64,000 nucleotides of DNA from an uncultured Paracoccaceae bacterium (GTDB taxonomy: Bacteria; Pseudomonadota; Alphaproteobacteria; Rhodobacterales; Rhodobacteraceae): assembly GCA_913060475.1 (NCBI GenBank), contig CAJXSD010000013.1, positions 1 to 64,000 on the forward strand. Reading direction: 5' to 3'. The position numbers and the translations under genes are program-made. The number at the start of each line of letters is the position of its first letter. Position 1 is the first letter of the stretch. The notes beneath the pieces were generated by a model. It worked only from the letters and a program-made list of their open reading frames with translations, did not search any database and was not told the origin of the DNA. Positions 14,408 to 30,446 of this stretch are shown here, piece by piece.

Positions 14408-14547
14408 GGCTTGTCATAGAAAATCGTTGTTGCGATTTTTGAAACGTCGCGCTCAGGCAGATACTGCATCCCCCCACTCCCTTCTGCCTGGGCCGACGAC
14501 AGTCTCTCCTCCCTGACTGGCCGCATCATTTATTGATGCGGTTTTTT
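14408..14547 (+). ncRNA. CcsR/cuckoo-like small RNA with anti-SD loops
   Basis: Predicted ~140-nt small RNA. Three hairpins precede an intrinsic terminator: AAAATCG/CGATTTT (14420-14439); GCTCAGGCAG/CTGCCTGGGC (14451-14460 with 14484-14493, 10 bp with one G-T) with a C-rich loop holding CCCCCCACTCCC; and CAGTC/GACTG (14500-14504 with 14515-14519) with loop TCTCCTCCCT. Two neighbouring hairpins that show CU-rich, anti-Shine-Dalgarno loops are the mark of the CcsR (conserved CCUCCUCCC motif stress-induced) and cuckoo RNAs known from Rhodobacter and relatives. In Rhodobacter sphaeroides these lie behind a DUF1127 gene; none is visible here. The 5' end is not certain. Confidence 0.6.
14521..14547 (+). 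terminator. Rho-independent terminator of the sRNA
   Basis: CCGCATCA (14521-14528), loop TTTAT, TGATGCGG (14534-14541), then six T (14542-14547). A strong intrinsic terminator on the plus strand. Because the upstream gene on the plus strand is more than 14 kb of mixed orientation away and parE runs the other way, it must serve a transcript that starts in this gap. Confidence 0.9.
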
Positions 14548-14582
14548 CTTGTGTATTTTGTGAAATCTGCCTAGATCGATTC

Positions 14583-27432: not shown

Positions 27433-29223
27433 ATGACAACTGAAGACACAGGCGACCTGGCACAAAACGCGGTTTTAGAGCAAAATCTGAGCCGATTAGA
27501 AGAGCTGACCCAGCGGTTTGTCACCGTTATTCAGAACAAAAAACAGATTAATCCTGCGTTAAATGGTCCCAGCCCCGATCTGATGGCCAAGGCTTCGGCA
27601 CAGTATTGGCAACAGATGATGGAAAATCCGGCCAAGCTGATGGAAAAACAGGTCGAATATTGGGGACAAACCTTTCATCATTTTATGGCGGCGCAGCAGG
27701 CATTGGTTGCGGGCAATTCGGAGGTAGCTGCTGCGACCCCAACGGACCGCCGGTTCAAAAACCCGATGTGGGATACCAACCCCTATTTCAGTTTTCTAAA
27801 ACAACAATATCTGCAAAACGCCGAAATCATGCGCCAAGCGGTTGACGATCTAGGGGACATGGACCCGCTGGAACAAAAACGCCTGAAATTTTTCACCCAG
27901 CAAATCATCGATATGATGGCACCCACCAATTTTCTGGCGTCAAACCCCGATGCGTTGGAACGGGCCGTGGAAACCCAAGGGCAATCCCTGATTGATGGTT
28001 TGCAAAACCTGATCAGCGACCTTGAGGCGAACGATGGCGAATTGGTTGTCCGCTTGGTCGACGAAACCGCGTTCCAAGTGGGGGGAAACATTGCCACCGC
28101 GCAGGGCAAGGTGGTTTACCGCAATCGGATGATGGAATTGATCCAATACAGCCCGACCACCAAGACGGTCCATGAAACCCCGATTGTGATGTTCCCGCCA
28201 TGGATCAACAAATTCTATATTCTGGATCTGAAACCTGAAAACAGTTTGATCCGCTGGATTGTTGATCAGGGGTATACATTGTTTGTGGTGTCGTGGATCA
28301 ACCCTGATCATGATTATGCCGATACCGGTCTAGAGGATTATATTCAGGATGGATATCTGACCGCGGTCGATGTGGCCAAACAGATCTGCGATCAGGATCA
28401 AGTTAATGCCATCGGATATTGCATCGCGGGCACGACATTGTCGCTGACCTTGTCCTTGATGAAAAAACGCGGGGATTCGTCGATCAAATCGGCCACATTA
28501 TTTACCGCTTTGACAGATTTTTCGGATCAGGGCGAATTTACCCCGTTTTTGCAAAATGATTTCATCGACGCGATCGAAGATGAAATTAACGCCAAAGGCA
28601 TCCTTGAAAGTTTCATCATGGCGCGCACCTTTAGTTTCCTGCGGTCCAATGACTTGGTCTATGGCCCCGCAATCAAAAGCTATATGATGGGGGAAACGCC
28701 GCCAGCGTTTGATTTGTTGTATTGGAACGGGGATGGATCCAGCCTGCCGGGGAAAATGGCAAAACAATATCTGCGCGGGCTGTGTCAGGCCAATCAATTT
28801 GCCCAAGGCACGTTCGAATTGATGGGCGAAACGTTGGCGTTGTCGGATGTTGATGTCCCGATTTGCGCCGTGACCTGTGAAACCGATCATATCGCGGCAT
28901 GGAAAGATTGCTATCGTGGTGTCCAACAGATGAAGAGCCGGTCAAAAACATTCATCATGTCACAATCGGGCCATATCGCCGGCATCGTTAACCCGCCCAG
29001 CAAAAAGAAATATGGCCATTACACCAATGCCAATCTGAAAACCGATGCCGACACCTGGGCCAAGGATGCCGAATTTCACGCAGGCAGCTGGTGGCCACGC
29101 TGGGAATCGTGGGTCAAACCACGCTCTGGCAAACAGGTTCCAGCCCGTATTCCGGGCGATTCGGACTATGATGTGCTATGCGATGCGCCTGGGACCTATG
29201 TCATGCGGAAATCAAGTGTCTGA
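27433..29223 (+). CDS. phaC: Class I poly(3-hydroxyalkanoate) synthase
   Basis: A 596-residue PHA synthase that polymerises 3-hydroxyacyl-CoA on the granule surface. The lipase-like box is GYCIAGTT with the catalytic Cys near residue 330; the catalytic His is in SQSGHIAGIVNPP (~512), and the Asp is in the segment AVTCETDHIAAW (~480). N-terminal residues 1-100 are helical and variable as usual. phaE or phaR-type partner subunits are not needed for class I. Start ATG 27433 is supported by the promoter and operator that cover earlier candidates, though its ribosome binding site is poor. Confidence 0.94.
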   Translation: MTTEDTGDLAQNAVLEQNLSRLEELTQRFVTVIQNKKQINPALNGPSPDLMAKASAQYWQQMMENPAKLMEKQVEYWGQTFHHFMAAQQALVAGNSEVAAATPTDRRFKNPMWDTNPYFSFLKQQYLQNAEIMRQAVDDLGDMDPLEQKRLKFFTQQIIDMMAPTNFLASNPDALERAVETQGQSLIDGLQNLISDLEANDGELVVRLVDETAFQVGGNIATAQGKVVYRNRMMELIQYSPTTKTVHETPIVMFPPWINKFYILDLKPENSLIRWIVDQGYTLFVVSWINPDHDYADTGLEDYIQDGYLTAVDVAKQICDQDQVNAIGYCIAGTTLSLTLSLMKKRGDSSIKSATLFTALTDFSDQGEFTPFLQNDFIDAIEDEINAKGILESFIMARTFSFLRSNDLVYGPAIKSYMMGETPPAFDLLYWNGDGSSLPGKMAKQYLRGLCQANQFAQGTFELMGETLALSDVDVPICAVTCETDHIAAWKDCYRGVQQMKSRSKTFIMSQSGHIAGIVNPPSKKKYGHYTNANLKTDADTWAKDAEFHAGSWWPRWESWVKPRSGKQVPARIPGDSDYDVLCDAPGTYVMRKSSV

Positions 29224-29248
29224 ATTTGCAGCCTAAATAAAATAAATG

Positions 29249-29259
29249 CTGCGGTGCAG
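29249..29259. promoter_or_regulatory. PhaR operator 1 at phaP
   Basis: CTGCGGTGCAG, an exact CTGC-N3-GCAG dyad, 25 bases after the phaC stop and just upstream of the predicted phaP -35 box. Its centre is 28 bases from the second site, so two PhaR units could bind side by side. Confidence 0.65.
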
Positions 29260-29268
29260 AAAAAGTAC

Positions 29269-29297
29269 TTGATTTTCTGCGCTGCAGCATAGATATT
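29269..29297 (+). promoter_or_regulatory. Predicted phaP promoter with PhaR operator 2
   Basis: TTGATT (29269-29274) and GATATT (29292-29297) at 17 bases form a sigma-70-like promoter. The spacer holds CTGCGCTGCAG (29277-29287), another exact CTGC-N3-GCAG dyad. A bound PhaR would lie between -35 and -10, in line with strong repression of the phasin gene until PHA granules titrate PhaR away. Confidence 0.6.
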
Positions 29298-29341
29298 ATA
29301 TCCAGAACACGGGGCCATCCCTGATAGAAAGGATATTTCCA

Positions 29342-29782
29342 ATGACGACTGCACAAGATATGACAAAAATGTTCAAAGACATGATGGGCGCATTTCCCGT
29401 CGATACATCCGCATTTGAAAACATGTTCAAAAACTCGGCCGAGATGAACGAAAAATTCGCCGGTGTTGCGCTGCAAGCTGCTGAAAAATCTGCCGAGCTG
29501 TCCACAAAATGGACCAAAGAAACACTGACAAAATTGACAGACGTTTCCAAAGCGAAAGCCGAGCCTGCCGATTACGCCAAAGCGATGACCGATTTCGCAT
29601 CTGCCCAAGCAGAAGTGACCGCTGAAAATCTGGCCGCCTTTGCTGAAATCGCAAAGAAAGTACAAACAGACACAGTTGAATTGATGATGTCTGCTGGCAA
29701 AGAGTTTTCAGAAGAAGCGTCAGCCGCAGTTAAGAAAGCAACATCAGACGTTGCTACTGCGACGAAAAAAGCTGCGAAATAA
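29342..29782 (+). CDS. phaP: Phasin, PHA granule-associated protein
   Basis: A 146-residue phasin that coats PHA granules and limits their size. It is nearly all amphipathic helix, rich in Ala, Lys, Glu and Thr, with the phasin_2-type heptad region (NMFKNSAEMNEKFAGVALQA, ~27-46) and an Ala/Lys-rich tail (VKKATSDVATATKKAAK) like those of granule-bound proteins. AGAAAGGA lies upstream. Codons are strongly biased, as in a highly expressed gene. It has its own promoter with two PhaR sites and a strong terminator. Confidence 0.93.
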   Translation: MTTAQDMTKMFKDMMGAFPVDTSAFENMFKNSAEMNEKFAGVALQAAEKSAELSTKWTKETLTKLTDVSKAKAEPADYAKAMTDFASAQAEVTAENLAAFAEIAKKVQTDTVELMMSAGKEFSEEASAAVKKATSDVATATKKAAK

Positions 29783-29787
29783 GATAT

Positions 29788-29810
29788 AAGCTCTCTCCTC
29801 CCTCGAGCTT
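29788..29810 (+). ncRNA. phaP 3' UTR hairpin with CCUCC loop
   Basis: Six bases after the phaP stop, AAGCTC (29788-29793) pairs with GAGCTT (29805-29810) around the loop TCTCCTCCCTC. The first ten loop bases are the same as the loop of the last hairpin of the small RNA at 14.5 kb. The loop is complementary to Shine-Dalgarno sequences. With the terminator at 29817-29848 it could be released as a small 3' UTR-derived RNA. The structure is seen; the role is inferred. Confidence 0.45.
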
Positions 29811-29816
29811 TATTTA

Positions 29817-29848
29817 GGGCAAGCCTATGCTTGCCCTTTCTTTTTTTT
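29817..29848 (+). terminator. Rho-independent terminator of phaP
   Basis: GGGCAAGC (29817-29824), loop CTAT, GCTTGCCC (29829-29836), then a T-rich tract of 12 bases with one C. A strong intrinsic terminator that separates phaP from phaR. Confidence 0.92.
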
Positions 29849-29900
29849 CTGCAACCGCGTAATGTTTACCGCAGCGCCGCAGAATCTGGAGGGATCCCCC

Positions 29901-30446
29901 GTGACGGAAACATCGCAACCTTTGTTGATCAAACGTTATGCAAGCCGCCGGTTATACAATACCGAAACCAGTGATTATGTGACCCTAGAGGATATCGCAG
30001 GGTTCATTCGTGATGGCCGCGATGTGCAGATCATTGATCTGAAATCCGGGGACGATCTGACGCGGCAATATTTGTTGCAAATCATCGCCGAACACGAAAG
30101 CCGTGGTGAAAATGTATTACCGATCAATGTGTTGAACGATTTGGTGCGCAGCTATACAACCCAAGCCTCATCCGTGGTGCCCCAATTTTTGGCCATGTCC
30201 TTTGATATGCTACGCGAAGGGCAGAACAAAATGCTGGGGTCGATGAACCCCATGGCGTCGATGCCCGGGTTTGAGGCGATGCAAGCCCAGCAAGAGGCCT
30301 TTATGAAAGCCTTTACATCCGGCTTTGGTCAGTGGCCCAGTGCGCCTGCACCCCAAGAGGACGCCGCCGCCGAGGGGGACGACCTGTCGGATATCAAGGC
30401 ACAGTTGGCTGAATTGCAGGCCAAACTCAGCAAAATGGGCAAATAA
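29901..30446 (+). CDS. phaR: Polyhydroxyalkanoate synthesis repressor PhaR
   Basis: A 181-residue PhaR. The N-terminal PHB/PHA accumulation regulator domain is clear: LLIKRYASRRLYNTETSDYV (~8-27) and VTLEDIAGFIRDGRDVQIID (~27-46), followed by DDLTRQYLLQIIAEHESRG. The C-terminal part is helical with Gln/Ala/Met runs and ends in a predicted coiled coil (IKAQLAELQAKLSKMGK). PhaR binds both DNA and PHB granules. GTG 29901 has GGAGGG 7 bases upstream. The proximal leader lacks an exact CTGC-N3-GCAG dyad, so autoregulation is not obvious. Confidence 0.93.
   Translation: MTETSQPLLIKRYASRRLYNTETSDYVTLEDIAGFIRDGRDVQIIDLKSGDDLTRQYLLQIIAEHESRGENVLPINVLNDLVRSYTTQASSVVPQFLAMSFDMLREGQNKMLGSMNPMASMPGFEAMQAQQEAFMKAFTSGFGQWPSAPAPQEDAAAEGDDLSDIKAQLAELQAKLSKMGK

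Follow-up and report, generated by a model that had tools for sequence, protein, structure and literature searches.

A conserved anti-Shine–Dalgarno hairpin behind the phasin gene phaP in the Rhodobacteraceae

Described anti-Shine–Dalgarno RNAs and the 3' end of phaP

The CcsR1–4 RNAs of R. sphaeroides (CIN1; RF02791) lie in the 3' UTR of an mRNA for a small protein, present anti-Shine–Dalgarno (anti-SD) sequences in hairpin loops and end in a Rho-independent terminator, according to the portions available of PMC8625941 and PMC10253847. These features are found again at the 3' end of the phasin gene phaP in the window, the whole 64,000-nucleotide stretch analysed here, which comes from an uncultured Paracoccaceae bacterium. 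The CcsR loop motif, of the CCUCCUCCC type, is present in the phaP hairpin (loop TCTCCTCCCTC, in which UCCUCCC is conserved), and the phaP element shares an octamer with the DUF1127 locus of its own genome. It differs from CcsR in its host gene, which encodes a phasin, whereas CcsR follows a DUF1127 gene (ccaF1), and in number, since each CcsR RNA has two hairpins, both with the motif, while the phaP element of the window has one. Rfam returned nothing at gathering score for the window, and RF02791 gave no match within 29600–30000 at E values up to 5.

A comparable likeness holds for ar14, or NfeR1/cuckoo (RF02344), in which an ultraconserved CCUCCUCCC stays unpaired while the stems vary, and for which ABC-transporter mRNAs are among the target candidates (available text of PMC10746234 and PMC3927594). 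The ar14/cuckoo RNAs come from sRNA genes of their own and have three hairpins that each carry CCUCCUCCC, whereas the phaP element is a single hairpin of the CUCCUCCC type. Two phaP 3' ends with two hairpins (L172, L185) scored 29–30 bits against ar14, for which the cut-off is 58.8.

The ar8 family (MmgR, SisA–D; RF00519) likewise has an anti-SD-type motif beside a terminator. In S. meliloti, PhaR represses MmgR, an RNA that lowers PHB and phasins (PMC12542648 and PMC8401924, in the parts available), and the ar8 RNAs SisA–D act by means of a 10-mer that bears an anti-SD signature (PMC12559287, also in part). Unlike the phaP 3' element, ar8 is a separate sRNA gene, and the canonical ar8 sequences inspected have the motif between two hairpins (by eye), whereas at phaP the motif lies in a loop. 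Membership of RF00519 was considered and rejected: the + strand reached 24.0 bits over the full model against a cut-off of 41, and since MicX scored higher on the opposite strand (26.9 bits, cut-off 75), such sub-threshold scores mean little. RF00519 matches were found at the phaP 3' ends of three of 16 relatives (L107, L060, L106), with E values of 1.1–4.3. Above the cut-off, ar8/mmgR was detected in 11 of 19 family genomes that lack phaP and in one of 141 that bear it (Fisher 2.8e-11, a value that ignores phylogeny). A clean exclusion between ar8/mmgR and phaP was rejected, and a replacement of one by the other is not claimed, because diverged ar8-like RNAs below the cut-off are present in phaP-bearing genomes (L294–L296, L300 and, judged by likeness, an RNA-like locus at 14.5 kb of the window).

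The release of sRNAs from mRNA 3' ends has precedents in the same bacterial family, namely SorX and PcrX of R. sphaeroides (PMC8625941, available text) and UdsC, which come from other genes and have other pairing sequences than the phaP element. Among the matches listed, no paper showed a phasin 3' end of such a kind, and the words phasin and phaP are absent from the main text, in the portions available, of the sRNA surveys of Ruegeria pomeroyi (PMC4809877) and Paracoccus denitrificans (PMC5107571). Judged by its sequence, the phaP element follows the same logic as CcsR and ar14, but it is single in the window, stands behind another gene and falls under every Rfam cut-off.

The phaP locus and conservation of its hairpin

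In the window phaC, phaP and phaR stand in one row (Table 1). The name phaP leans partly on this order and on homologues, because the Phasin_2 match is below its cut-off and an NCBIfam search with the protein gave no match.

Table 1. Features of the phaP locus and of the related locus at 14.5 kb (positions in the window)
Feature	Position	Strand	Evidence
phaC, PHB synthase	27433..29223 (putative start codon)	+	Pfam PhaC_N, E 2.8e-74
Two TGC-NN-TGCA boxes (29250-29258, 29278-29286), putative PhaR sites upstream of phaP	29250..29286	+	likeness to S. meliloti PhaR sites
phaP, phasin, 146 aa	29342..29782	+	Pfam Phasin_2, E 2.8e-4, under family cut-off; homologues in 30 of 61 genomes
Anti-SD hairpin: stem 29788-29793 (AAGCTC)/29805-29810 (GAGCTT), loop TCTCCTCCCTC 29794-29804	29788..29810	+	sequence, fold, conservation, covariation
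Intrinsic terminator of phaP: stem 29816-29837, then T-rich tract	29816..29848	+	sequence, fold, terminator scan
phaR, PHB repressor; SD CTGGAGGGATC, a candidate target	29901..30446	+	NCBIfam TIGR01848, E 9.7e-46
14.5-kb RNA-like locus: TCTCCTCCCT shared, TCTCCTCCCTGACTGGCCGCATC ahead of terminator, ar8-like 3' part	14485..14557 (RNA-like locus with strong fold, 14446-14552)	+	fold z -7.38

The hairpin starts five bases after the phaP stop codon (TAA, 29780–29782). A sequence-only reading of this DNA had placed a 6-bp hairpin and a terminator directly after the phasin stop, and its coordinates match exactly; the ten consecutive bases which it saw shared with the 14.5-kb RNA were recovered as TCTCCTCCCT at 14505–14514 and 29794–29803. 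This string occurs twice in the window, where 100 shuffles lead to an expectation of 0.00. The stretch 29776–29852 folds at −23.4 kcal/mol (z = −4.10), none of 200 shuffles being equally stable, and in a fold of 29300–29848 the loop bases are unpaired with a probability of 0.94–1.00. The phaP terminator is the single terminator-like site in 29150–30000, where shuffles expect 1.4, and the 3' end of phaP shares this terminator with the mRNA, as 3'-UTR-derived sRNAs do. A promoter scan of 29150–30000 found no match, and as it was blank even upstream of phaP it is uninformative on an internal promoter. The boxes upstream of phaP resemble the PhaR sites given for S. meliloti (PMC12542648, available text); TGC-NN-TGCA strings number 17 in the window, no more than chance overall, but two of them fall together in a single 37-base stretch upstream of phaP.

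Conservation was assessed at 110 phaP loci, comprising 30 from the 61 genomes and the best 80 of 446 found by scanning a named collection. The script used a single fixed threshold, under which a hairpin counted if it had at least 5 pairs, a loop with CCUCCC or UCCUCC and a position within 120 nt of the stop. Such a hairpin is present at 89 of the 110 3' ends (86 of 107 distinct stretches), usually 5–47 nt past the stop and 1–15 nt ahead of the terminator. Dinucleotide shuffles (100 sets) gave a mean of 3.05 and a maximum of 9 out of 110, while reverse complements gave none of 110, stretches upstream of phaP one of 110 and phaR 3' ends none of 80. A looser criterion yielded 93 of 110, false positives included, and was not used. 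As plain strings, CTCCTCCC was present in 54 of the 110 stretches and CCTCCC in 93, against 3 for the reverse complement of CCTCCC and 22 for the reversed string CCCTCC. The view that the phaP 3' end bears an anti-SD hairpin like that of CcsR is thereby upheld, by the loop itself and by its conservation across the family. The expectation that close relatives would carry the hairpin held for the 89 loci and fell short in the window's own genus, where L002 and L003, both among the 21 of 110 loci without a hairpin by the threshold, show only a degenerate form with the loop TTCTCCC or TTTTCTCCC, lacking CCUCC. The nearest kin of the window are not the best examples of the element.

Across the family, phaP was found in 141 of 160 genomes (159 genera). 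A further set of 115 phaP-bearing family genomes with 124 phaP genes had handles outside model R2, although some may lie near named loci. Within 250 nt of phaP, R2 matched at E <= 1e-4 for 85 of the 124 genes, in 83 genomes, and in 81 of the 92 further genomes with a match at this level the best one was at phaP. All 39 genes without an R2 match were checked by the script, which found the hairpin at 19 and not at 20, so that model and script together assign it to 104 of 124 genes and leave 20 of 124 without. A few of the hairpin-negative 3' ends show variants by eye. The hairpin is not essential, since it is missing from 21 of 110 and 20 of 124 phaP 3' ends. Away from phaP there were 33 R2 matches; of 20 inspected, five had CCTCC in the matched stretch and the remaining 15 were mostly behind porin-like genes (by eye). 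Two or more anti-SD hairpins are seen by eye at the phaP 3' ends of L020, L172, L177, L185 and L188, and in L172 and L185 the terminator-like hairpin itself bears the motif.

The mode of conservation differs between stem and loop. The alignment comprised 64 hairpins (63 distinct) placed by the model; it was fitted to the structure and drew on loci with a visible hairpin, and is hence biased towards structure. In it, each of the seven pairs of the anti-SD hairpin varies at both of its positions, and 94.2% of cells are paired. With the terminator counted in, the structure as a whole has a covariation score of 0.613, against 0.188 for shuffled alignments and 0.047–0.096 for slid partners. Identity in the loop core UCCUCCC is 0.85–1.00 (1.4–2.0 bits per position), while the stem columns carry 0.04–1.28 bits, 12 of 14 being under 0.8. 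The element, its conservation and the mode of that conservation are established at this level of comparison: the stem is maintained only as structure and the loop letter by letter, which, as read from the alignment, is the signature of base pairing between the loop and some other nucleic acid. The element very probably has a function that rests on base pairing.

Two simpler accounts have to be weighed against this. Chance or base composition is rejected on the shuffles (3.05 versus 89), on covariation at every stem pair and on the expectation of 0.00 for TCTCCTCCCT; set against these, the shortness of the motif, the pyrimidine-rich loop and the degenerate loops of the closest relatives, L002 and L003, leave a chance likeness with a very small probability. 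A second account takes the hairpin merely to guard the 3' end of the phaP mRNA or to aid termination, the loop sequence being incidental. This would suit the position of most hairpins, a few bases ahead of the terminator, and the motif-less hairpins that precede the terminators of porin-like genes, but it is improbable given that the loop core is far more conserved than the stem and that the motif stands at 89 of 110 phaP 3' ends and at none of 80 phaR 3' ends.

Candidate targets and a proposed role

The loop consensus was scored against 25-nt stretches at ribosome-binding sites (RBSs), the start with the best SD being chosen. Mean pairing with the phaR RBS is −13.4 kcal/mol (n = 81), compared with −6.2 for long ORFs of the window (n = 50) and −6.6 for other ORFs of the loci (n = 298), and GGGAGG, GGAGGG or GGGGAG is present in 72% of phaR RBSs versus 4% of those of window ORFs. 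The RBS of phaP itself pairs at −6.5 (n = 110). Self-targeting of phaP is rejected on account of this RBS, which is of the AAGGA type and has GGAGG in only 2% of the 110. Where phaR is not beside phaP its SD is still strong (−13.4, n = 8). In other families of the class it is not strong on average: the 30 best loci, of which 28 belong to such families, have a mean of −7.8. Loop and phaR gave no sign of coevolution, own pairs being no better than permuted ones (p = 0.16; the own loop scored better in 38% of 65 cases), and the phaR SD did not differ between genomes without the hairpin (−13.2, n = 23) and with it (−13.9, n = 88; p = 0.16). In the window the match to phaR is a modest −10.1, against −14.1 to −15.8 at six solute-binding-protein sites.

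These data bear on whether the loop might work within the full-length phaP mRNA, either by pairing with other mRNAs or on phaR from the neighbouring unit, with no sRNA released. Such an arrangement finds support in phaR, which follows phaP on the same strand in 81 of 110 loci and has an exceptional GGGAGG-type SD, and in the loop of L005, where ten bases match the leader of phaR (by eye). In the window, however, the terminator separates phaP from phaR. No phaR follows in 29 of the 110 loci, and in the 26 loci which have at least 1300 nt behind the stop and no phaR within 1300 nt downstream the hairpin is kept in 22, which favours action in trans and rejects a cis-element for the neighbouring phaR only. 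Together with the missing coevolution and the equally strong phaR SD of hairpin-less genomes, this makes action confined to the full-length mRNA a minority reading, which we regard as unlikely though deserving of some weight.

The genome as a whole offers other GGGAGG sites. There are 52 instances of GGGAGG with RTG behind it, against 20 for the reversed control, and among 30 such sites inspected solute-binding proteins are prominent among the gene starts. The GGGAGG SD loci examined in the window's own genome (L237, L246, L248–L250, L258, L261, L264 and L266–L276) are concentrated at solute-binding-protein genes. Matches to PF03480 and PF13407, the two solute-binding families counted, number 16 in the genome and seven have a GGGAGG SD (hypergeometric 1.1e-8, assuming 2,500 genes). 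Judged by eye, five of these 16 encode LacI-type regulators, none with a GGGAGG SD, so that the proportion among solute-binding proteins becomes seven of 11. The perfect eight-base site GGGAGGAG was found nowhere in the genome except opposite the seven occurrences of the loop octamer, so that pairing would extend over about seven bases plus flanks. The complementarity of the loop to GGGAGG sites is plain from these counts. As predictions of targets they are weak, since a loop of this kind can pair with any strong SD, and the GGGAGG of uptake genes could be there for other anti-SD RNAs or for strong translation. On this distribution, the GGGAGG SDs of solute-binding-protein genes are a likely class of targets for anti-SD RNAs at large.

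The reading which we favour, and think rather more probable than improbable, is that the phaP 3' UTR is a maintained anti-SD module of the CcsR/cuckoo type, made with the phasin and blocking GGGAGG-type SDs, the likeliest targets being uptake mRNAs and the second phaR. Expression of the phaP 3' end, its processing, its action and their outcome would take the following course. As PHB accumulates, PhaR would be drawn off the phaP promoter, and the phasin mRNA and the module would be made together. The 3' end of ~60 nt, released or within the phaP mRNA, would pair with GGGAGG-type SDs and thereby block translation. Its likeliest targets would be the mRNAs of solute-binding proteins of ABC and TRAP uptake systems, in which case carbon storage would lower uptake. 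A second candidate target would be phaR, given that its SD is unusually complementary family-wide, and the result would be a double-negative loop keeping phasin on. The phaP mRNA would spare itself because its own SD is of the AAGGA type.

It is attractive to consider, as a bolder and distinctly tentative extension which we hold to be doubtful, that the phasin mRNA may be a dual-function transcript, encoding a granule-coat protein and carrying a family-wide 3' regulator that would shut off uptake mRNAs and PhaR through one anti-SD loop. It might then represent the Rhodobacteraceae counterpart of the rhizobial RNA MmgR, likewise under PhaR, but independently built into the phasin gene. If this were true, the state of the carbon store would be tied to how uptake systems are translated, with no need for an sRNA gene of its own. 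The family is abundant in the sea and includes PHB producers, and in alphaproteobacteria anti-SD RNAs (CcsR, NfeR1, AbcR, SisA/MmgR) act as regulators of nutrient and stress responses.

The same motif elsewhere in the genome

The octamer CTCCTCCC occurs seven times in the window's own genome (2.54 Mb): four times in L133, a DUF1127/CcsR-type locus, once at 14506, once at phaP and once in an aminotransferase-like ORF. In L133 (1435–1812; own genome, C8) a 71-aa DUF1127 protein is followed by four anti-SD hairpins, of which the last is a terminator; the locus scores 38.8 bits against CcsR1 (E 1.5e-6) and 45.8 bits against ar14, both under the gathering score. A cobalamin riboswitch (RF00174, 112.6 bits) lies on the − strand at 2285–2471 of L133. 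The 14.5-kb RNA had been taken for a CcsR locus; that assignment has to be given up, the CcsR-type locus of the genome being L133 instead. To go by a weak Rfam match and by its likeness to L294 (by eye), the 14.5-kb RNA resembles a diverged ar8/mmgR RNA more closely than it does CcsR.

The presence of the loop octamer in this DUF1127–CcsR-type locus also admits a different function, in which the loop would offer a docking site to a protein or RNA that also handles CcsR RNAs (the DUF1127 protein CcaF1, or Hfq), and the phaP mRNA would compete within the CcsR system or act there as a sponge. CcaF1 does bind CcsR RNAs and help their maturation according to the available text of PMC10253847 and PMC8625941, but recognition of the loop by CcaF1 is not described in those portions, and we rate a docking function as highly improbable. 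The preferred reading remains that of an anti-SD module which would act on SDs.

Anti-SD hairpins were noticed by eye at other genes too, among them DUF1127 genes (L118, with Pfam support) and in arrays (L123). Two genomes (L122 and L136) have an anti-SD hairpin and a terminator at the end of a gene that looks, by eye, choline-dehydrogenase-like. A further motif, ACCTCCCTGTTGGACTT and then a terminator of the GGCCGAGC type, recurs in L145, L152, L297–L299, L302, L305 and L306, and is possibly the mark of another ar8-like sRNA group; in L145 and L152 the nearest long ORF upstream of it is LysR-like.
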